64,000 nucleotides of DNA from Methylobacterium sp. NMS14P (GTDB lineage Bacteria; Pseudomonadota; Alphaproteobacteria; Rhizobiales; Beijerinckiaceae): assembly GCF_028583545.1 (NCBI RefSeq), contig NZ_CP087106.1, positions 2,176,501-2,240,500 of the forward strand, read 5' to 3'. The notes under the pieces are model-generated. The model saw only the letters and a program-made list of their open reading frames with translations. It was not told the DNA's origin and did not search any database. The first letter of the stretch is position 1. Each line of letters opens with the position of its first letter. Made by a program: the position numbers and the translations under genes. Of the stretch, positions 14,842 to 25,382 are shown piece by piece.

Positions 14842-15162
14842 TCAGCCCTGCTGGGACGGCGTCGTCACCACGAGGCCGTCGAGCGCCGGCGTGATCTTGA
14901 TCTGGCAGGACAGGCGGGAATTCTCGCGGACGTCGCTGGCGAAATCCAGCATGTCCTGCTCCATATCCTGCGCCTTGCCGACCGTGTCGATCCAGGCGTC
15001 GGCCACGTAGACGTGGCAGGTGGCGCAGGCGCAGGCGCCGCCGCACTCCGCGTCGATGCCCGGGACGTTGTTGCGCATAGCCGTCTCCATCACGGTCGCG
15101 CCGACGCTGCCTTCGACGGTCCGTTCCGTCCCGGCGTGGTCGACGTAGGTGATCTTGGGCAT
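14842..15162 (-). CDS. [2Fe-2S] ferredoxin, adrenodoxin/bacterial FdxB type
   Basis: This 106-residue electron carrier has the vertebrate/bacterial ferredoxin cluster ligands Cys40, Cys46, Cys49 and Cys86 (C-x5-C-x2-C...C) inside [15 protein letters not shown] and RLSCQI. An extra Cys44 sits inside the first loop. Such ferredoxins serve Fe-S cluster assembly, P450s or dioxygenases. No partner reductase is adjacent, so the partner is unknown. Confidence 0.95.
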
Positions 15163-15296: not shown

Positions 15297-15617
15297 TCAG
15301 GCGCGCGCCTCCGCGATCTCCGCCAGCGCCCGCGCGACCGCGGCCGCGAGGTCGTCGACCGGCACCGCCCCGGCCCCGCCGCGCAGGCGCGCCTCCGCGG
15401 CGTCCGCGAGGGCGCGCACGTGAACCGCCCCGACGCCCGCGGCCGAGCCCTTCAGGGTGTGGGCGAGGTCGGCGCGCTGCTCCCGCGGCAGGGCCGGGTC
15501 GGCGAGGCGCGGCAGGATCGACCGGCACTGGCCGGCGAACAGCTCCAGAACCTCACGGGCCAGATCGGCGTCGCCGCCGGTCTGGGCCTCGAGTTCCGCG
15601 GGGTCGATGGCCTGCAT
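15297..15617 (-). CDS. Hpt (histidine phosphotransfer) domain protein
   Basis: This 106-residue helical protein carries the Hpt motif AHTLKGSAAGVGA with the phospho-accepting His53. It relays phosphate between a hybrid histidine kinase and a response regulator. The ATG at 15617 has a GGGAG site 7 nt upstream. It is an orphan: no kinase or regulator is next to it. It diverges from the giant repeat protein gene, sharing a 288-bp intergenic region. Confidence 0.9.
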   Translation of the reverse strand: MQAIDPAELEAQTGGDADLAREVLELFAGQCRSILPRLADPALPREQRADLAHTLKGSAAGVGAVHVRALADAAEARLRGGAGAVPVDDLAAAVARALAEIAEARA

Positions 15618-15755
15618 GCTCGAACTCCCGGCATCCGGATTCGTCGGGGATTGCGGATCTGATCCACACAATTCACCCCCTGATTCGCCGGGTGGGGATC
15701 GCGCCGGACCCCTCCCCTGCGGCAGGATGGTGGAGGCGGTGAGCGACGGGCCCGG

Positions 15756-15770
15756 TAACCATTCGGTTAA
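15756..15770. promoter_or_regulatory. CtrA-like site upstream of the giant repeat protein gene
   Basis: The stretch TAACCATTCGGTTAACC contains two CtrA-like half-sites, GTAACCAT (one mismatch to TTAACCAT) and TTAACC, 136 bp before the giant gene. Spacing is one base off the ideal N7, so the match is suggestive only. Confidence 0.4.
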
Positions 15771-15905
15771 CCTTTTCTGGGGCCGGTCGAGGGCTCGGGT
15801 ATCGGCAGTCGCTGCCCGAGTTTAGTCTTGTAATGGTAAACGGGGCGTTGCGTCTCCGGCTCAAGCCTCCCCAGGCGCCGGTGAACCCGTGTAACGAGGC
15901 GTTGA

Positions 15906-18900
15906 ATGGCGACCGAGAAGAAGCTGAAGGACCCGGCCGAGGCCGCGCTCTCTGCGATCGAGCAGGCGCTGAACCTCGACGCCCTGACGCCGAACGGCAC
16001 CGACGGCCGCGCCGAGCCGCGCCTGCCCGATGTCGGTGACGCCGACCCGCTGCGCGACGGCGGCCTCGACGCCGGCCGGACCATGCCGCCGCGCCTCGAC
16101 CTCGACCCGCCGCTCGCCTCCGACCTGCCGCCGCCGGGCCTCGACCGCCCTCGCCGCGAGGGCGGCCTCCTGCCCCCCGACCGCTCGCTCGTGGCCAACG
16201 ACGACCGGCGCAACATCGGCATCCTGCAGCAGACCCTGCGGGTGCGCTCCTCGCCCAAGCCCTACCTGCTCGCGCTCGCCGCCGGCGCCGTCTGGATCGG
16301 CGCCCTGGTGCTGATCGCGTGGTCGAAGTCCGACGGCGACCTGCGCGCGGTCGTGTCGGGCCTCTCCGCCCTCCAGGCGAGCGTCGGCGCCGCGGCCCTG
16401 TTCGGCCCGGTGGTGCTGTTCGTGATCGCCGCCATGCTGGCGGTGCGCGCCCAGGAGATGCGCCTCGTCGCCCGCGCGGTCGGCGAGGTCGCGGTGCGTC
16501 TGGCCGAGCCCGAGAGCTTCTCCACCGACGCGGTCCTGACCATGTCGCAGACCGTGCGCCGCGAGGTGGCGGCGGTGGGCGACGGCGTCGAGCGGGCGCT
16601 CGCCCGGGCCGGCGAGCTGGAGACCCTGGTCCGGGGCGAGATCGCCACCCTGGAGCGGGCCTATTCCGACAACGAGATCCGCATCCGCTCCCTCGTGGAC
16701 GAGCTGGTGGCCCAGCGCGAGGCGATCGTCACCAACGCCGAGCGGGTGCGCAGCGCCATCACCGGGTCGCACCAGAGCCTGAGCCAGGACCTGGAGGGCG
16801 CCTCCGACCGGATCGTCTCCGCGGTGACCGGCGCGGGCGAGCGCGTGACCGGCGCGCTGGAGACCCGCGGCGCCGCGATCACCGCCTCCCTGGGCGAGGC
16901 CGGCGACCGGGTGGTCAACCTGATGACCGCCCGCGGCAGCGACCTGATCGACACCCTCGCGGCCACCAGCCAGGAGGTGCGCGGCAGCTTCCAGGAGGTC
17001 GGCGAGACCCTGACCCGCACCTTCGAGGACCGCGCCGGCACGGCGACCGGCGCCTTCCAGGCCGCCGGGACCGCCCTGGCCGAGCGCCTGTCGGAGAATG
17101 CCGGCGCCCTCACCCGGACCCTGGAGGAGACCGGCAGCCGCGTGGGCGACGCGCTGGAGCGCCAGGCCGGCACGGTGCGCGAGACCTTCGAGCGCTCCGT
17201 GACGGGGCTGGAATCCGTCTTCCTGTCGCGGGGCTCGGAGCTGACCGAGCGCTTCGGCGCGATGGGCGCCGAGATCACCGCCCGCTTCGCCGACACCGGT
17301 TCGGCCCTGACCCAGGACATCGCCGGCCGCGGCCTCGCGCTGCGCGCCGAGATCGAGAGCGCCGGCCTGTCGGTCGCCGAGACGATCGAGGGCCGCGGGC
17401 GCGACGCCCAGGCCGCCCTGGCGCTCGCCGCCAGCGGCGCCGGCGAGACCCTGGCGGCCCGCGCGGGCGCCGTGCGCGACGACCTCGTCGGCACCGCCGA
17501 GCGGATCGCCGAGGCCCTGTCGGAGCGCGGCGGCGCCCTCGCCGAGCGGATGGACGGCATCGCGGCGCGCCTCGACGAGACCGTGACGGTCCGAGCGGCG
17601 GACCTGGAGCACCGGGTCGCGGCGGCGGCCGAGCGGGCCGGCGGCAGCATCGCGCACCGGACCGAGACGGTCGCGGCGAACCTGGAGGCCGCCTTCGCGG
17701 CCCTGGGCCAGGGCTTCGAGACCGGGGCCTCCTCGGCGGTCCAGTCCCTGCGGGGCACCGTCGAGGGCCTGTCGGGCGAGATCGACGGCCGCACCGCCGA
17801 GGCGGTCGCGGCGCTCCAGCGCGGCGCTGACGCGGCCACCAGCGCCCTGCGCGGCACCGCCGAGGACGCCACCGGCGCGGTCGAGGCCCGGACCCTCGAG
17901 GCCGTGCGGGTGTTCGAGCGCCGGGTCGCGGATTCCGCCGCCGCCCTGTCGGCGCGCACCGAGGAGGCGGCCGCCGCGCTGCGGGCCGCCGCCGATCAGG
18001 CGAGCCAGGCCGCCGAGACGCAGACGCGGGACGCCGCCGCCCGGCTCGCCGAGGCCCTGGAGACCCTGCGCAACGCCTCCGGCGAGGTCACCGGCGCCGT
18101 CGAGGCCGAGACCGCGATCCTCACCGCCCGGTTCCGCGACGCCGCCGACCGCACCGGCACCGAGCTCGGCGCCCGCGGCACGGAGGCCGTCGCGGCGGTC
18201 CGCGCCGCCCTCGACGACCTCAACCGCGAGCTCGCCGCCCGGACCGGCGACGCCACCGGCAGCCTCGCCGAGGCCGCCCGCGCGATCTCGGCCGACCTCG
18301 CCGCCCGGATCGGCGAGATGGAGGCGGCCTTCGGCGAGCACGGCCGCGGCGTCGCCGAGCTGCTCGCCGGCCACGCCGACGAGACCCAGGCCCGGATCAG
18401 CGGCACCGGCCGCGACATCGTGCTCGCCGTGGCGAGCCAGGGCGCCCGCATCGCCGACACCCTCAGCCAGACCGGCGCAAGCTTCGCCGAGACCGCCGAC
18501 GGCCGCGTTCGGGCGATCGACGAGACGCTGGGCAACCGCCTCGCCGCCCTGCAGGAGACCATCGCCCGCGGCGACATCCTGGCCGACCGGATCGGCCGCG
18601 ACACCGCCGCGCTGGGCGAGACCGTTGGCGCGCGGCTTGAGGAGATGGACCGGCTCCTCACCGGCAAGGGCGAGGCCGTCGCCGAGACGATCACGACCCG
18701 GGCCCGCGAGGCCGGCAGCCTGATCGAGACCCATCTCGGCGGCCTGGAGACGCGCTCCGCGGAGCGGGCCGCCGCCATCGCGGCCGCCGTGGCGGCGCTG
18801 GTCGGCCAGATCGACGACCGTCTCGGCAGCCGCGCGAACGCCGTGGACGAGGCGCTGCGCGCCCGGACCGACGAGATGGGCCGGATCATGGCCGAGGGCC

Positions 18901-21900
18901 ATCGCGGCCTGATGGAGATGCTGGAGGGCCGCACCTCCGGGCTCGGCCAGGACATCGCCCGCCACACGGGCGAGATCGCCCGGCGGATCGAGGAGAGCGC
19001 CGGCCATTTCGACACCGGCGTCATCGGCCGCCTGCAGGCGATCGCCGAGACCCTGGACCAGCGCGCCCGCCTCGTGGACGAGAGCTTCGGCGTGCAGGCC
19101 TTCGAGGCGATCCGCCTGATCGAGGCGCGCACCCGCGCGGTCGACGAGGAGCTGGCCGGCCGGACCCGCGACCTCGTGTCGATGATCGCCGACCGGACCG
19201 GCGGCCTCGACGGCGCCATGGCCGAGCGCGTCCGCGCCCTCACCGGCACCATCGAGGAGGCCACCCGCGGCCTGGAGGCCGCGCTGGCGAACCGCGCGGA
19301 CTCGATGATCCGGCTGGTGGACGAGCGCACCGAGAGCGCCGACGCGGCGCTGGCCGCCCGCACCGAGGCCGTGCACGCGGCCTTCGCGGAGCGCGCGGAA
19401 CTCCTCGGCCGCCTCATCGACGAGCGCGTCGCCGCCATGTCGGGCGAGCTCGACGAGAAGGGCCGCGCCGTGTTCGGGGCGATCGGCGGCCGGATCACCG
19501 AGCTCGCCCGCCTGCTCGACCGCGGCGGCACCTCGCTCGCCGAGCTCATCGATCAGCGCGGCGAGAGCGTGCTCGCCAAGCTCCAGCAGACCATCGCGGA
19601 CGCCGAGCGGATGCTCGATGCCGGCGAGGGCCGCCTCGGCCACACCCTGTCGAGCCGCACCGCCGACATCAGCGGCCTCCTCGACGAGGGCGTGCGCTCG
19701 GTCCACACCCTGCTGGACGACCGGACCAACCAGATCCGCGTCCTGCTGGACGACCATGCCGGCACCCTGGCCGCCACCCTGGACGGCCGGATGGGCCCGA
19801 TCCACGAGGCGCTGGACGGCCGCGGGCAGGCGATGGTCGCCGCCCTGGAGGGCGCGTTCGGCTCCGCCACCGGCGCCCTGGACGACCGCACCCGCCAGCT
19901 CGGCAGCCTGTTCGACGAGCGGCTGGGCCACCTGGAGAGCCTGGTCGACGGACGCGGCAACCGCCTCGCCGACACCCTCACCGCCCGGGCCCAGGCCCTG
20001 CGCACCCTGTTCGAGGAGGCCCAGTCGGCCCTCGACGGCGTGGTCGAGGGCGGCGGCGGCCGCTTCGCTGCCGCGGTCGACGCCCGCATCCAGTCTCTCC
20101 GCGCGGTGCTGGAGGAGGCGCCCGCCGCCGTCTCGGCGCTGGTGGAGACCCGCGAGCGCCAGCTCGCCGCCACCCTCGACGCCCGCACGCAGCGCCTGCA
20201 GACCCTGTTCGAGGAGGCCCAGGCCGGCCTGCGCGACCTCGTCGACGGGCGCGGCCAGGAAGTCGCCGACGCCATCGCGGCCCGGACCGAGGGCCTGCGC
20301 ACGACCCTCGACGCGGCGCCCGCCCAGATGGCGGACCTGCTGGACACCCGCCTGTCCGACCTCCAGGGCCTGTTCGAGCGGGCACAGGGCGAGATCGACC
20401 GTCTCGTCGATACCCGCGGCCGCCAGATCGCCGGGACGATCGAGCACCGCACCCAGGCGCTCCAGGCGACCATCGAGGGGGTGAACCCGGCCATCGCCGG
20501 CCTGCTCGAGGAGCGCGAGACCCGCCTGGCCGAGACCCTCAAGGAGCGGACGGGCGAGCTGCAGACCCTGTTCGACCGGGTGCAGAACCGCCTCGGCGCC
20601 CTGGTCGAGGGCACCGGCCGCGACGTGTCCGAGCGGGTCGACGCGCGCGTCGAGACCCTGCGGGCGACCTTCGAGCAGGCGCGCGCCGCGATCGAGGGCC
20701 TGCTGGAGGACCGCGGCCAAGCCCTGGTGGCGGCCGCCGAGGGCCGCACCGGCGCCCTGGTGGAGGTCTTCGACGCCCGCCTGCGCGCTCTCGACGGTGC
20801 CGTCGAAGGCCGGACTGGCGCCCTGGTCGAGACCTTCGACGCCCGCCTGCGCGCCCTGGACGGCGCCGTCGAGGGCCGGACCGGCGCCCTCGTGGAGACC
20901 TTCGACACCCGGCTGCGGGAACTGGACGGCGTGGTCGAGGGCCGTACCGCGGCCCTGGCGCAGGCCGTCGAGGCGCAGAGCGAGGCCCTGGCCCGCGGCG
21001 TCGACGCCCGCGCCGACGCCTTCACGCAGCGCATCGACAGCCGCATGCGGCTGTTCGCGACCCTCGTGGCGCAGCGCGCCGACACCCTGGCCACCGCCTT
21101 CGACGACCGCCACGAGGCCTTCGCGGGCCTCATGGACGAGCGCACGGCGTCCCTGGTCGCCGCCCTCGACGAGCGGGCGCGCGCCCATGCCGAGCAGGTC
21201 GAGGCCCACAACGCGGCCCTGGCCGAGACGCTCAGCCGCCGCGAGGCCGCGCTCGCCGGCCTGATCGACGCCCGCACCGAGGCCCTCGGGGCCGGATTCG
21301 AGCGCCGCGCCACGGCGCTCGGTGCCCTGGTCGACGCCCGCGGCGAGGCCCTGTCCCGCCGCCTCGCCGAGAGCGCCGAGACCCTGGTGCGCGCCATCGA
21401 GGAGCGCGGCGGCGCGCTGCTCGCCAGCGTCGAGGGCAGCGGCCGCGCCGTCGGCGACAGCCTGGAGGGCCATGTCGAGCGCCTGCGCGGCGCCATCGAC
21501 GGCCCGATGATGGACCTGTCGCGGGCCCTGTCGGACCGGGCCGAGGCGATCGAGCGGACGCTCGCCGAGACCGGCGTGCCCCTGGCCGAGAGCCTGCGGG
21601 AGCGCACCGAGGAGCTGGCCGTGCAGTCGCGGGCCTCGGCCGAGTTGCTGCGCGCCGCCGTCGAGGACGGCGCGGGCCGCACGCTCTCGGAGCTGTTCGA
21701 GACCAACGACCGGATGGGCCGCGAGCTCGGCGCCCTGCTCCAGCGGATCGAGGCCGCCAACACGGCGCTGACCGACCTCGTGGCCGGCGCCGACACCAAT
21801 CTCGGCGCGATCGAGCAGGGTCTCGCCGGCCGGATCGAGCAGGTCCAGTCGGCGCTGGAGCGCATCGCCGCCGAGACCGGCCGCGCCAGCGCCGGCGTCT

Positions 21901-23309
21901 CGGCCCAGGTCGAGGCCCTGCGCGGCGCCGCCGACGGCGCGCTCAGTGAGGCCTCGCGCCTCGCCGAGACCCTCGACGGCCGCGGCCGCTCGCTCGGGGA
22001 GCAGACCGCCGCGCACGTGGCGGCCCTCGACCGGGCCGCGGCCTCCCTGGCGGCCATCGAGGAGCGCCTCGACTCGGCCCTGTCGGGCCGCGAGTCCAAG
22101 CTGACCGAGGCGCTGGCCGCCTTCGAGGCCCGGGCCGCCGCCCTGGAGCAGAACGGCACCGCCCTGGCGCAGACCATCGACCAGACCCTGCGCGCCGCCG
22201 AGGAGCGCGCCCGCAGCGTCGGCGAGTCCCTGGCCCAGTCGGCCCAGGGTGCCGGGGCCTCGGTGACGAGCGCCTTCGCGGACCTGAAGGACAGCGCCAG
22301 CGCCGAGGGTGAGAAGACCGCCCAGGGCGTCCGGCAGGTCATCGAGGAGGCGGCCCGCGAGATGCGCAGCGGCTTCCAGGAGGCCCAGGCCAGCTTCGGC
22401 GACTCCTTCTCGGCCCTGCGCGAGATGGCGGGCTCGATCCGTGGCGAACTCGACGCGACCCGCGCCGAACTCGCGAAGGGCGTCCTCGAGCTGCCGCGCG
22501 AGACGCAGGACGCCACCGGCGAGATGCGCCGGGTGGTGGCGGACCAGATCAAGGCCCTCAACGAGCTGTCGTCCCTGGTCTCCCGCTCCGGCCGCGCGGT
22601 CGACGTCGCCCAGCCGCAGGCGCAGCCCCAGCGCCGGGTCGCGGAGAGCGGCGGCCGCGCCGTCGCGGCGGCGCCGTCCGCCGCGGCCCCGATCGCACCG
22701 TCGATCCCGACGGCGGCCCCCGCGGCTCCGGCCCTGCCGGCGCCCGCTGCGACGCCCCGCGCCGCCACGGCCAAGATCGAGGCGCCGCGCCCGTCCGCGC
22801 CCGCCCGCCCGGCGCAGGCCGGCGACAAGCGCGGCTGGCTGTCCGACCTGCTGACCCGCGCCTCGCTGGACGACGACGAGGAGCCGGCGGCCGACGCGCC
22901 GGCCGCCGCCCCGGCGCCCGCGCCGGCGGCCCGCCGCCCCGCGGTGGCGGCCGCCGAGACCGGGCGGATCGCCCTTGACACGATCTCGACCGACATCGCC
23001 AAGATGATCGAGCACCGGACCGCGGTCGACCTGTGGGAGCGGTACCGCCGCGGCGAGCCGAACCTGTTCGACCCGCGGATCTACACGCCGCAGGGTCGGG
23101 CCACCTTCGCGGAGATCCAGCGCCGGTACAGGATCGACGCGGAGTTCCGCCGCAGCGTCGACCGCTACGTCAGCGAGTTCGAGCGCCTGCTCGGCGACGT
23201 GGTCAAGAACGACAGCGACGCCAAGCGCACCGACGCCTACCTGACCTCGGAGACCGGCAAGGTCTACACGATGCTGGCCCATGCCAGCGGGCGCTTCGAC
23301 GGGGCGTAG
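15906..23309 (+). CDS. Giant membrane-anchored 22-residue-repeat protein (growth-pole-ring / apolipoprotein-like)
   Basis: This 2,467-residue protein has a charged N-terminal cytoplasmic stretch (1-118), two predicted membrane helices (about 119-139 and 163-181), and then over 1,800 residues of amphipathic helix. Across much of the centre the sequence falls into 22-residue units beginning with R-T/G/A and rich in Leu, Asp and Glu (for example RTGALVETFDARLRALDG), like apolipoprotein A repeats. A proline/alanine linker (about 2,240-2,335) leads to a conserved-looking C-terminal domain containing LWERYRRGEPNLFDPRIYTP and FRRSVDRYVSEFERLLGDV. Size and layout match the growth-pole-ring protein GPR of Agrobacterium and RgsE of Sinorhizobium, which organise polar elongation. 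That role is inferred. Confidence 0.88.
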   Translation: MATEKKLKDPAEAALSAIEQALNLDALTPNGTDGRAEPRLPDVGDADPLRDGGLDAGRTMPPRLDLDPPLASDLPPPGLDRPRREGGLLPPDRSLVANDDRRNIGILQQTLRVRSSPKPYLLALAAGAVWIGALVLIAWSKSDGDLRAVVSGLSALQASVGAAALFGPVVLFVIAAMLAVRAQEMRLVARAVGEVAVRLAEPESFSTDAVLTMSQTVRREVAAVGDGVERALARAGELETLVRGEIATLERAYSDNEIRIRSLVDELVAQREAIVTNAERVRSAITGSHQSLSQDLEGASDRIVSAVTGAGERVTGALETRGAAITASLGEAGDRVVNLMTARGSDLIDTLAATSQEVRGSFQEVGETLTRTFEDRAGTATGAFQAAGTALAERLSENAGALTRTLEETGSRVGDALERQAGTVRETFERSVTGLESVFLSRGSELTERFGAMGAEITARFADTGSALTQDIAGRGLALRAEIESAGLSVAETIEGRGRDAQAALALAASGAGETLAARAGAVRDDLVGTAERIAEALSERGGALAERMDGIAARLDETVTVRAADLEHRVAAAAERAGGSIAHRTETVAANLEAAFAALGQGFETGASSAVQSLRGTVEGLSGEIDGRTAEAVAALQRGADAATSALRGTAEDATGAVEARTLEAVRVFERRVADSAAALSARTEEAAAALRAAADQASQAAETQTRDAAARLAEALETLRNASGEVTGAVEAETAILTARFRDAADRTGTELGARGTEAVAAVRAALDDLNRELAARTGDATGSLAEAARAISADLAARIGEMEAAFGEHGRGVAELLAGHADETQARISGTGRDIVLAVASQGARIADTLSQTGASFAETADGRVRAIDETLGNRLAALQETIARGDILADRIGRDTAALGETVGARLEEMDRLLTGKGEAVAETITTRAREAGSLIETHLGGLETRSAERAAAIAAAVAALVGQIDDRLGSRANAVDEALRARTDEMGRIMAEGHRGLMEMLEGRTSGLGQDIARHTGEIARRIEESAGHFDTGVIGRLQAIAETLDQRARLVDESFGVQAFEAIRLIEARTRAVDEELAGRTRDLVSMIADRTGGLDGAMAERVRALTGTIEEATRGLEAALANRADSMIRLVDERTESADAALAARTEAVHAAFAERAELLGRLIDERVAAMSGELDEKGRAVFGAIGGRITELARLLDRGGTSLAELIDQRGESVLAKLQQTIADAERMLDAGEGRLGHTLSSRTADISGLLDEGVRSVHTLLDDRTNQIRVLLDDHAGTLAATLDGRMGPIHEALDGRGQAMVAALEGAFGSATGALDDRTRQLGSLFDERLGHLESLVDGRGNRLADTLTARAQALRTLFEEAQSALDGVVEGGGGRFAAAVDARIQSLRAVLEEAPAAVSALVETRERQLAATLDARTQRLQTLFEEAQAGLRDLVDGRGQEVADAIAARTEGLRTTLDAAPAQMADLLDTRLSDLQGLFERAQGEIDRLVDTRGRQIAGTIEHRTQALQATIEGVNPAIAGLLEERETRLAETLKERTGELQTLFDRVQNRLGALVEGTGRDVSERVDARVETLRATFEQARAAIEGLLEDRGQALVAAAEGRTGALVEVFDARLRALDGAVEGRTGALVETFDARLRALDGAVEGRTGALVETFDTRLRELDGVVEGRTAALAQAVEAQSEALARGVDARADAFTQRIDSRMRLFATLVAQRADTLATAFDDRHEAFAGLMDERTASLVAALDERARAHAEQVEAHNAALAETLSRREAALAGLIDARTEALGAGFERRATALGALVDARGEALSRRLAESAETLVRAIEERGGALLASVEGSGRAVGDSLEGHVERLRGAIDGPMMDLSRALSDRAEAIERTLAETGVPLAESLRERTEELAVQSRASAELLRAAVEDGAGRTLSELFETNDRMGRELGALLQRIEAANTALTDLVAGADTNLGAIEQGLAGRIEQVQSALERIAAETGRASAGVSAQVEALRGAADGALSEASRLAETLDGRGRSLGEQTAAHVAALDRAAASLAAIEERLDSALSGRESKLTEALAAFEARAAALEQNGTALAQTIDQTLRAAEERARSVGESLAQSAQGAGASVTSAFADLKDSASAEGEKTAQGVRQVIEEAAREMRSGFQEAQASFGDSFSALREMAGSIRGELDATRAELAKGVLELPRETQDATGEMRRVVADQIKALNELSSLVSRSGRAVDVAQPQAQPQRRVAESGGRAVAAAPSAAAPIAPSIPTAAPAAPALPAPAATPRAATAKIEAPRPSAPARPAQAGDKRGWLSDLLTRASLDDDEEPAADAPAAAPAPAPAARRPAVAAAETGRIALDTISTDIAKMIEHRTAVDLWERYRRGEPNLFDPRIYTPQGRATFAEIQRRYRIDAEFRRSVDRYVSEFERLLGDVVKNDSDAKRTDAYLTSETGKVYTMLAHASGRFDGA
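20745..20942 (+). repeat. Three tandem 66-bp near-identical coding repeats inside the giant gene
   Basis: Units at 20745-20810, 20811-20876 and 20877-20942 encode three near-identical 22-residue blocks beginning RTGALVE. Neighbouring blocks keep the 66-bp period but are diverged, so these three look like recent duplications. Confidence 0.9.
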
Positions 23310-23408
23310 GACCGATCCCGCCGGGGCCGCTCGCGGCGCCGGCGGGACCCGCACCGGGGACGACGAGACCCGTCGCACCCTCTCCCCGCATCCAGAGGTT
23401 ATGCGCGC

Positions 23409-23469: not shown

Positions 23470-23910
23470 TCACAGCAGGCCGAGGCCGGCGAGCTCGCGC
23501 CGCAGGGCCTCGGGCATCTCGGCGAGGTCCCCCGAGGCCTCGGCCCCGAGATCGGCCGGCGCGTCGCGCGCCGTGAGGTAGCGCCAGCCCTGGAACGGCC
23601 GGTAGGGCCGGGGCGCCACCGGGACGAGGCGGGGATCGAAGACCAGCCGGCAGCGCGGGATGCCGTCCGCGTCGGTGAGCGGCTCGATCGCGGTGATCGC
23701 CTGCCGGCAGGACAGCGTCCCGCGGATCACCCAGTAGATCGAGCCGTGGCCGGTGATCTCCCGGTGGCGCTTGGGCAGGGTGCGGGTGACGTGGAACGGG
23801 GCCGCGGGCCGACCGTCCCGGAGCGCCTCCTCCCGGAACCGGGCCTGCCGGGCCTCGAGATCGGCGATGGTGGCGGGGCCGACGCAGAGCTTGATCAGGT
23901 GCAGGGCCAC
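23470..23910 (-). CDS. DUF1489 family protein
   Basis: This 146-residue protein starts MALHLIKLCVGPATIADLEA and contains HVTRTLPKRHREI, GSIYWVIRGTLSCRQ and the late GWRYLTARDAPADL block. This pattern is typical of the alphaproteobacterial DUF1489 family, whose function is unknown. It converges on the giant gene. Confidence 0.9.
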   Translation of the reverse strand: MALHLIKLCVGPATIADLEARQARFREEALRDGRPAAPFHVTRTLPKRHREITGHGSIYWVIRGTLSCRQAITAIEPLTDADGIPRCRLVFDPRLVPVAPRPYRPFQGWRYLTARDAPADLGAEASGDLAEMPEALRRELAGLGLL

Positions 23911-24016: not shown

Positions 24017-25300
24017 TCAGGCGAACAGCGCGAGCCGCTGCTCCGGCGTCAGCGCGTCGATCTCGGCGAAGCTCAGGGCCGGCTCCTCCGGCGGCATCGC
24101 CGGCTCGGGGGCCGCCGCGACGGTCTCGCCCCAGGTGAGGTCGGCCACGTCCCGCGCGATGTCCTGCGCGAAATCCTCCTCGAACGTCTCCTCGAACCTG
24201 TCCTCGATCGCGGCGTCGGGCTCCGGCGCGGCCTCGGCGGACGAGTCGGCGACAGGGGGGGAGGCGGCCTCCGGAGCCGGCTCCGGCACCGTCTCCGGGA
24301 CGGCCTCGAAATCGACCGCCCAGTCGGTGTCCAGATCGGTCTTCGCGCCAGCGTCCAGGTTGCCCGCCGGCGCGGCCTCCGGCGCGTCCCCCAGCGCGTC
24401 CCCCAGCGCGGCCAGTCCGACCAGCTCGGAGACGGCGTCGGGCTCGACCTCCGCCACCGGCTCCGGCTCGGCCGGCGCTTCGGCCGCAGTCTCGGCCGCA
24501 GTCTCGGCCACAGTCTCGGCCTCCGGCGCCCGGGCCTCCTCCGGGACCGGCAGGAACATCAGGTCCTCGTGCAGCGCCGGGCTGCCGGGGCGGGCCACGA
24601 GGGCCGCCACCGTGACGGCCGGCACGTCCATGGCGATGTAGCGGTCGATGTCGCTCTGGTTCAGATCGGCCGGCTCGCCGGCCGGCCGCGCGCCCCGGTG
24701 GGGCGGCACCCGCACCGCGTCCTCGCCCCAGATGGCGATCATCGCGGAGACCCGGTCCTCCAGGTAGCGCAGGGTGTAGACGATCCGGGCGGTGCGCTGC
24801 GCGGTCAGGTCCTGGAAGGAGCAGGCCGTGTAGATCGCGGTCGCGTGGCGGTCGAGGGCGTCGCAGGCCTGCGCGTCGGCCCCGTGCTCGCGCAGGGTCC
24901 AGGCCGCCTCCTGGATCGACTCGGCGGCGCTGAGGATGTCGGAGGTCGCCTGCTCGGTCTCGCGCACGATGGCGTCGAGGGCGAGCGACGCCTGCGTCAG
25001 CCGGGTCTCGTCGCTGTTCGGGGCGTTGAGCGCCGCGATCTCGCCCTTGGTCCGGCTGATCGCGTCGGCCATGTCGAGGAGGTTGCCGCGCAGGTGCCCG
25101 AAGGCCTCCTGCCCGCGGTCGGCGGTGACGCTCCGCTCCAGCCGCGCGATCGCCCCGAGCAGCACCTCGGTCTCGGCACCCCGGTTGCGCCGGGCGTACT
25201 CGGCGAGGAACCAGCGGCCGCGCTCGCTGGCGCTGATCGTCGCCTCGATCGCCTCGTACTCGGCCGAAGCGTGCGCGCTCGGGGTGACGGAACCGAACAT
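24017..25300 (-). CDS. CheZ-like protein phosphatase with long acidic C-terminal tail
   Basis: This 427-residue protein has a helical N-terminal half with ACSFQDLTAQRTARIV at about 159-174. That matches the CheZ active-site helix, in which Asp and Gln (here D164 and Q168) dephosphorylate CheY-P. After about residue 230 the protein is a long disordered Ala/Glu/Pro tail with PEPVAEVEPD-type repeats, ending FAEIDALTPEQRLALFA, a possible docking peptide. The ATG at 25300 has an AGAGAGG site. No other chemotaxis gene is nearby. The substrate could be a CheY-like regulator or another receiver protein. Confidence 0.8.
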   Translation of the reverse strand: MFGSVTPSAHASAEYEAIEATISASERGRWFLAEYARRNRGAETEVLLGAIARLERSVTADRGQEAFGHLRGNLLDMADAISRTKGEIAALNAPNSDETRLTQASLALDAIVRETEQATSDILSAAESIQEAAWTLREHGADAQACDALDRHATAIYTACSFQDLTAQRTARIVYTLRYLEDRVSAMIAIWGEDAVRVPPHRGARPAGEPADLNQSDIDRYIAMDVPAVTVAALVARPGSPALHEDLMFLPVPEEARAPEAETVAETAAETAAEAPAEPEPVAEVEPDAVSELVGLAALGDALGDAPEAAPAGNLDAGAKTDLDTDWAVDFEAVPETVPEPAPEAASPPVADSSAEAAPEPDAAIEDRFEETFEEDFAQDIARDVADLTWGETVAAAPEPAMPPEEPALSFAEIDALTPEQRLALFA

Positions 25301-25382
25301 GGGCCTCTCTGGACGCTCGATGCGGGCGCGGGGGCGGCCCGCCCCGGTGCGCGCCAATCGCCGCGAATTTGACAGAGGCCCT

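Follow-up and report, generated by a model that had tools for sequence, protein, structure and literature searches.

How the polar-growing Rhizobiales replaced MreB is the question raised by a giant gene in Methylobacterium sp. NMS14P. We analyzed a stretch of 64,000 nucleotides from this organism (contig NZ_CP087106.1, positions 2,176,501 to 2,240,500; referred to as the window), in which an open reading frame (ORF) for 2,467 residues had been taken in an earlier note for the counterpart of two giant proteins, GPR of Agrobacterium and RgsE of Sinorhizobium. As judged by the homology of both its ends and by its neighbourhood, the gene is almost certainly the Methylobacterium orthologue of GPR/RgsE. 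A protein of this kind is already known, here in a genus near the described hosts. To this the analysis adds four leads: a conserved Hpt partner gene beside the polar scaffold, an upstream element specific to the scaffold gene, a register lock by which the phase rather than the length of the rod is conserved, and the co-occurrence of GPR homologues with MreB in members of the order. In a literature search, conducted mostly at listing level, these leads were not seen described before; Methylobacterium is a genus that is easily handled in the laboratory.

The ORF begins with ATG (Table 1) and has a G+C fraction of 0.79, 0.54 and 0.98 at the three codon positions. Its product matches the Pfam apolipoprotein family PF01442 with 275 bits (E 3.7e-82; cut-off 90), and NCBIfam matches of coiled-coil type (SpiroCoCo/LA_3659) were set aside as compositional. 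The homology check proposed in the earlier note was run for both ends of the protein against RgsE of S. meliloti (SMc00190), and both matched: residues 1-260 with 40% identity over 198 amino acids (E 9e-33) and residues 2301-2467 with 50% over 159 (E 6e-46). The matching coding sequence (strain Ak57, CP090106) is annotated 'kinesin' and comprises 6,270 bp, or 2,089 amino acids, which is the published length of RgsE (PMC7327166); because length, homology and published description agree, we identify it with RgsE. The link to GPR runs through this comparison, with the kinship of Atu1348 to RgsE (42% identity) as given in PMC7327166. The order ferredoxin-Hpt-GPR is likewise common to the window and S. 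meliloti, with ferredoxin and Hpt on the strand opposite to GPR; the counterparts are 62% identical over 106 amino acids for ferredoxin and 41% over 70 for Hpt. Note that the use of gene neighbourhood as a criterion is our own and not a published one.

Homologues are widespread. The C-terminal 138 residues retrieved 96 proteins at E <= 1e-3, and residues 95-285 retrieved 252, of which the best 120 were listed; those named include proteins of Bosea, Pseudolabrys, Devosia, Methylovirgula and Bartonella. The N-terminal domain was found in 117 of 119 genomes of the window's family and in 58 of 59 of its genus, its own genome counted, and the C-terminal domain is present as a single copy in that genome (6.88 Mb, 3 contigs). 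A search of species genomes with the first 285 residues gave 445 confirmed loci, of which the best 80 were analyzed: 77 are from Methylobacterium or Methylorubrum, three from metagenome-assembled genomes of Methylobacteriaceae or Beijerinckiaceae. Among these 80, the closest to the window is M. fujisawaense DSM 5686, at 98%.

The layout of the protein is that read in the earlier note from the letters alone, with two N-terminal membrane helices, a very long amphipathic helix of 11/22-residue period, a Pro/Ala linker and a distinct C-terminal domain. Two hydropathy peaks mark the predicted membrane helices, a feature published for the GPR/RgsE family (PMC8262873). The rod between hidden Markov model (HMM) anchors measures 1,900 residues, and the Fourier analysis suggested at the time, applied to residues 201-2210, showed that hydropathy varies mainly with a period of 3.66 (power 118, where 1,000 shuffles reached at most 15.7), accompanied in the rod by harmonics of 11 at 10.97, 5.5, 2.75 and 2.2. 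The autocorrelation of residue identity is highest at lag 22 (0.219), followed by lags 66, 33, 44 and 11 (0.200-0.187). Behind the rod, prolines cluster at residues 2237-2345, and the conserved C-terminal domain is modelled as a compact helical bundle with a predicted local distance difference test (pLDDT) score of 90.

What the hydrophobic stripe of the rod contacts, a neighbouring rod or lipid, depends on the shape of its face. Plotted by local phase, the window's rod has a strongly hydrophobic arc of about 60 degrees: the share of ILVMFWY is 82-85% between -30 and +30 degrees and at most 32% elsewhere. Arginine and lysine reach 0.38 on one edge of the stripe, the only edge with an enrichment of arginine, whereas past the opposite edge the acidic residues come to 0.33-0.42. 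Net rod charge is negative (-0.033 to -0.085 per residue) in all 83 proteins of a set composed of the window, 80 further loci of its family drawn from the 117 positive genomes, S. meliloti and Shinella. Narrow arc and charge pattern fit a packing rod of 11-residue repeats at least as well as a lipid-lying helix, and from them we lean towards lateral, coiled-coil-like packing. The alternative, that the rod is apolipoprotein-like and forms a single long amphipathic helix resting on the inner membrane from the cytoplasmic side, where it organises lipid at the growing pole, is a serious if somewhat doubtful possibility. Besides the PF01442 score it can draw on the PDB, in which only two sequences match the rod at E <= 0.01, both of them apolipoprotein A-IV, on the similarity of GPR domains to this protein as described in PMC8262873, and on the register lock discussed below, which would suit a face held on a membrane. 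An arc of only some 60 degrees, arginine on a single edge and a negative net charge in every rod of the set are at odds with it. Packing in turn has two observations to contend with. The stripe is broken in the window, with a jump of about 110 degrees in local phase some 600 residues into the rod and a further shift close to its end, and the closest solved sequence relative of the rod, apolipoprotein A-IV (3s84, E 3e-4), favours a rod lying on lipid.

The divergent neighbour of the gene scores above the Pfam cut-off for Hpt phosphotransfer domains (PF01627, 35.7 versus 24.6 bits). In the earlier note this gene and a CtrA-like site were named as a possible tie of the giant protein to the cell cycle, and the first half of that proposal found more support than foreseen. 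A divergent Hpt ORF with the conserved H-LKG motif lies within 1.5 kb upstream of GPR in 67 of the 83 loci, always on the opposite strand, and in 79 of the 80 species-genome loci, or 76 of the 76 for which 1 kb or more upstream was available. We further fetched 60 loci, chosen from listed matches and largely the better-scoring ones rather than at random: 10 MreB-less and 10 of 23 MreB-bearing members of the order (the GTDB order throughout, the limits of which may differ from those in PMC7327166), and 40 of 107 positives from other orders, two of them without MreB. The divergent Hpt accompanies GPR in 6 of 10 MreB-less and 9 of 10 MreB-bearing loci of the order, and outside it in 10 of 38 MreB-bearing and neither of the two MreB-less loci. 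On the other side of the balance, no Hpt was found beside 16 of the 83 GPR genes nor beside 28 of the 38 MreB-bearing homologues of other orders, and the partner is therefore not obligatory. A functional partnership of Hpt and GPR nevertheless seems rather probable from this conservation. Literature searches combining Hpt with polar growth, judged by title and the start of the abstract, retrieved no paper on the Hpt gene, and neither did a search by two neighbouring S. meliloti locus tags, the numbers of which were guessed.

The intergenic region shared by the two genes holds a conserved element. GTTAAC occurs in 62 of the 67 Hpt-GPR intergenic regions, where 200 first-order Markov shuffles gave 3.8 on average and 9 at most. 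Its density there is 3.64 per kb (91 sites over 25,002 nt) as compared to 0.02 per kb (11 in 695,672 nt) in the remainder of 64 of the same loci, and it lies within 350 nt upstream of GPR in 70 of the 83 loci, with or without Hpt. Aligned family sites read ATGGTnAa-N6-CGTTAACGACGTTT, the first arm being weakly and the second strongly conserved. The exact 14-mer CGTTAACGACGTTT is present in 42 of the 119 family genomes, once per genome and upstream of GPR in 41 of the 42; none of the five genomes from the window's genus in this sample has it. Because the broad family motif scan misses the window's own element (its best score, 11 of 21, lies elsewhere), the form of the genus was treated separately. 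With up to one mismatch, the diverged Methylobacterium form GGTAACCATTCSGTTAAS was found in 52 of 59 genus genomes, with 52 of its 53 sites upstream of GPR and none for the reversed control. A looser genus form is present in 71 of the 80 species-genome loci; of the remaining nine, six show a related sequence in the corresponding position and three do not. The near-uniqueness of the element at GPR argues for a candidate site of a GPR-specific factor, or for a composite site.

An initial view that the element is not conserved within the genus, based on 30 family loci and two rhizobia with TTAACC in none and GGTTAA in one of four same-genus loci, was overturned by GTTAAC and the aligned contexts, in which the genus loci have a shifted form. 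M. brachiatum, M. mesophilicum and Methylobacterium sp. GXS13 (L200, L201, L204) have no GTTAA or TTAAC within 400 nt upstream of GPR, which the other 77 of the 80 loci do. By eye, a second GTTAAC lies 70-72 bp, or about seven DNA turns, closer to GPR in 17 of the 67 loci (L066, L077, L071, L068, L105, L106, L064, L062, L075, L086, L113, L087, L082, L108, L073, L103 and L110); the window has one only.

The CtrA box has the consensus TTAA-N7-TTAACCAT, also given as TTAA-N7-TTAACC(AT). If the element were such a box, Hpt and GPR would be regulated with the cell cycle, and the minus strand of the family consensus does contain TTAA-N7-TTnACCAT, which resembles the box. Boxes of the type TTAA-N7-TTAACCAT with up to two mismatches are moreover abundant in the window's genome, 109 as compared to 23 for the reversed pattern. 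Seven of them match exactly, including one that precedes a flagellar rod gene and one that precedes a ParA/MipZ-like ATPase gene. However, the strict half-site TTAACCAT was found in only 3 and TTAA-N7-TTAA in 4 of the 67 intergenic regions, and the window's second arm fits the box poorly, with about 4 of 12 fixed positions differing by eye. The flank CGACGTTT is conserved in the family, yet the 14-mer occurs just once per positive genome and nearly always at GPR, where a regulon motif would be expected to recur. GANTC is not enriched in the intergenic regions either (75 sites versus 96.5 expected), and in the main texts searched, as distinct from supplementary chromatin immunoprecipitation tables, SMc00190 appears only outside CtrA work. 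A site as noted earlier is thus real and conserved, but its match to CtrA is poor and it is nearly specific to GPR, and control by CtrA itself appears doubtful. The CtrA motifs of S. meliloti are treated in PMC4433202.

The length of the rod, in contrast to its phase, appears to be free. Ungapped HMM anchors could be placed in all 83 rods, where regular-expression anchors succeeded in only 26, and the lengths between them range from 800 to 2,685 residues. Taken modulo 11/3 these lengths are not uniform, with a resultant length R of 0.450 (Rayleigh p ~5e-8, ignoring kinship), and resampling one protein per genus (n=39) leaves a mean R of 0.46 (range 0.33-0.60). When all periods from 2.05 to 40 are scanned, R is highest at 3.6660 (0.457), the next value being 0.309; for moduli of 11, 22, 7, 3.5 and 3.6, R is 0.02-0.14 throughout, and 0.207 for 33. 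No lock was seen in the control lengths, namely linker (0.152), N-terminus (0.116) and whole protein (0.068). With lengths non-uniform modulo 11/3 and the controls null, what tends to be conserved is therefore the helical phase with which the rod ends, and not its length. Two observations count against this: the lock is weaker in the long half of the rods (R 0.275 versus 0.639 in the short half), and the window's own rod is 81 degrees off the mean phase of the family. The same lock might have arisen by multiplication of repeats, i.e. unequal crossing-over by whole units of 11 or 22 residues, rather than by selection on a helix face. The rod does contain internal repeats of 11 and 22 residues, and if these recombined with one another it would grow by whole units, but such growth predicts a lock modulo 11, where R is 0.138 (0.129 modulo 22), and the lengths modulo 11 instead fall into three clusters about 3.7 apart. 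We consider this origin unlikely.

Table 1. Features of the GPR locus, with positions in the window and residues of the giant protein
Feature	Residues	Position	Strand	Evidence
Predicted GPR/RgsE orthologue, 2,467 amino acids		15906..23309	+	ORF list, Pfam, homology searches
Two predicted membrane helices inside conserved N-terminal domain	~118-141 and ~148-188	16257..16469	+	hydropathy, N-terminal homology
Predicted helical rod, 11/3 period, narrow hydrophobic stripe	267-2167	16704..22406	+	hydropathy, HMM anchors
Region with Pro/Ala-rich linker	2168-2355	22407..22970	+	proline positions, HMM anchors
Conserved C-terminal domain, predicted all-helical	~2356-2467	22971..23306	+	homology, structure model
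Stand-alone Hpt phosphotransfer gene, divergent; ATG at 15617 likely, frame open from TTG at 15671		15297..15617	-	PF01627, conserved neighbour
2Fe-2S ferredoxin gene, next shared neighbour		14842..15162	-	Pfam, homology
Conserved GTTAAC element GGTAACCATTCGGTTAACC, about midway between Hpt and GPR starts		15754..15772	+	conservation, genome scans

Mutual exclusion of Rgs proteins and MreB was proposed on the basis of four MreB-bearing Rhizobiales species in which Rgs homologues were missing; the same work noted distant homologues of RgsE in Emcibacterales and Rhodospirillales (PMC7327166). In our sample the C-terminal profile finds matches in 194 of 199 genomes of the order. Full-length MreB, which within the order scores 5e-110 or better with PF06723, is encoded in 23 of these genomes, each of which also has the GPR C-terminal domain; for RgsE, as judged by these profile matches, mutual exclusion therefore does not hold in the larger sample. 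In the window's own genome no full-length MreB was found with PF06723, the best match being partial (5.9e-15, in a frame of 716 amino acids). Outside the order we used a class sample of 289 genomes, four of which belong to the window's family and 285, labelled 'same class', were taken as other orders. The C-terminal profile matches 107 of these 285. MreB is strongly matched (best E 3e-58 or better) in 105 of the 107, though full length was not seen for each. As a defining feature of GPR/RgsE hosts, the absence of MreB is undermined by this co-occurrence. In five genomes of the order (G490, G519, G576, G592 and G639), neither the GPR C-terminal domain nor full-length MreB was found.

Among the fetched loci the rods differ in period and length, the medians omitting L300, which runs off its contig, and loci without a measurable rod (6 of the 38 MreB-bearing loci of other orders). 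The nine measurable MreB-less loci of the order have periods of 3.663-3.665 and a median rod of 1,558 residues, and the ten MreB-bearing ones periods of 3.618-3.667 (median 3.626) with a median rod of 874. For the 32 measurable MreB-bearing loci of other orders the periods are 3.547-3.626 (median 3.578) and the median rod is 715, with three rods above 1,700. Periods of 3.570 and 3.572 were measured for the two loci of other orders that are without MreB, and absence of MreB alone thus does not bring about the strict period. Short rods exist in the MreB-less family too, one of 988 residues having a period of 3.665, so that period, more than length, marks the clade. We built a tree from both end domains. 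Its 58 rows are the window, S. meliloti, Shinella, 17 family loci that we chose and, out of the 60 fetched loci, the 38 that have a measurable rod and match at the N-terminus at 1e-4. In this tree the MreB-bearing members of the order form two basal clades outside the MreB-less clade. By the Shimodaira-Hasegawa-like approximate likelihood ratio test (SH-aLRT), the nearer split has a support of 99 and the MreB-less clade one of 89; the window falls into the latter clade, with its strict 11/3 rod. This topology is compatible with a single loss of MreB in the order. That the strict rod goes with the loss of MreB is therefore a correlation from perhaps one event and not independent evidence.

A more far-reaching reading, which we hold to be rather less likely than not, is that GPR predates polar growth and would derive from a mostly shorter, Hpt-partnered and membrane-anchored helical scaffold that coexists with MreB in other alphaproteobacteria. 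With the loss of MreB in the Rhizobiales lineage, a mixed period of about 3.58 may have been retuned to a strict 11/3, length freed under selection for register and a private GTTAAC element acquired by the promoter, in common with a dedicated phosphorelay protein; GPR and this Hpt may thus form a conserved two-part, cell-cycle-gated growth switch. It is improbable that the protein, although a true GPR homologue, serves in Methylobacterium as a general envelope scaffold not confined to the growing pole, as homologues in MreB users may do: MreB-bearing genomes do hold homologues of the same layout (23 of 23 in the order and 105 of the 107 positives elsewhere, the layout being known from the 50 fetched), but the window lies in the MreB-less clade with its strict rod, its genome has given no full-length MreB, and both experimentally tested relatives act at the growing pole (PMC7327166, PMC8262873).

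By analogy with these relatives, a role as growth-pole scaffold in Methylobacterium is likely. In the mechanism that we propose, the two membrane helices would anchor the N-terminus in the inner membrane and leave the rod in the cytoplasm, where rods would associate laterally through the hydrophobic stripe, with arginines flanking one edge and acidic residues beyond the other. Side by side the rods would build a polar ring or collar. The C-terminal domain, held beyond the flexible linker, may dock the envelope-growth machinery, and Hpt, expressed from the shared intergenic region, could pass on a phosphorelay signal that times the scaffold. In A. tumefaciens, GPR forms six foci that make up a ring near the growing tip, and its C-terminus is needed for function and not for ring formation (PMC8262873); the same arrangement may be expected in Methylobacterium. 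Further marks of GPR/RgsE are that the ring is hexameric and does not occur at the septum, and that rod shape and polar growth depend on the protein. Comparison of the C-terminal domain model with PDB structures gave no convincing match. Taken together, an orthologue of GPR/RgsE that acts as scaffold, with the mechanism and the Hpt partner as proposed, is probably the best explanation of the locus.

Some further observations concern the surroundings of the gene. An unusually long antisense ORF of 2,505 amino acids (15861-23378, minus strand) mirrors the entire GPR gene and is presumably a by-product of its GC-rich third codon positions. Downstream, a gene for a protein of 446 amino acids (24017-25357, minus strand) has a CheZ-like match below the cut-off (20.1 versus 30.7 bits) and a long acidic and proline-rich tail, and beside it lies a DUF1489 gene (23470-23910, minus strand). 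Rfam returned no matches at gathering thresholds in the whole window. The S. meliloti sequence CP090106.1 (3.7 Mb) is labelled pSymB, carries rgsE along with folate and cytochrome bc1 genes, and looks like a mislabelled chromosome.

Among known systems RgsE of S. meliloti is the closest, as it has in common with the window not only the end domains and gene order described above, but also a rod of 11-residue period (best period 3.654) and a Pro-rich linker. The window's rod exceeds that of RgsE by about 370 residues (1,900 versus 1,527 between anchors), its Hpt-GPR intergenic region is shorter (234 versus 617 nt by the same rule), and the genes downstream of GPR differ. Human apolipoprotein A-IV, the top PDB sequence match of the rod, has repeats of the same Pfam family. 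Its hydrophobic face is wider than that of the window's rod, and it has no anchor, linker or C-terminal domain of the GPR type. It is a single-domain lipid-transport protein of 396 amino acids (PMC8262873). The shorter GPR-like proteins of MreB-bearing alphaproteobacteria share N-terminal transmembrane segments, a helical rod, the same C-terminal domain at or near the end and, in the nearest ones, Hpt, but differ from the window in their shorter median rods and in periods that range below its 3.66. GPR of A. tumefaciens (Atu1348, 2,115 amino acids) can be likened to the window's protein by description, with two N-terminal transmembrane segments, a continuous helix of about 1,700 amino acids with PF01442, a P-rich region and an essential C-terminus (PMC8262873). 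Ring and polar growth have been demonstrated for GPR in that organism (PMC8262873), whereas the Methylobacterium protein is known here from its sequence.

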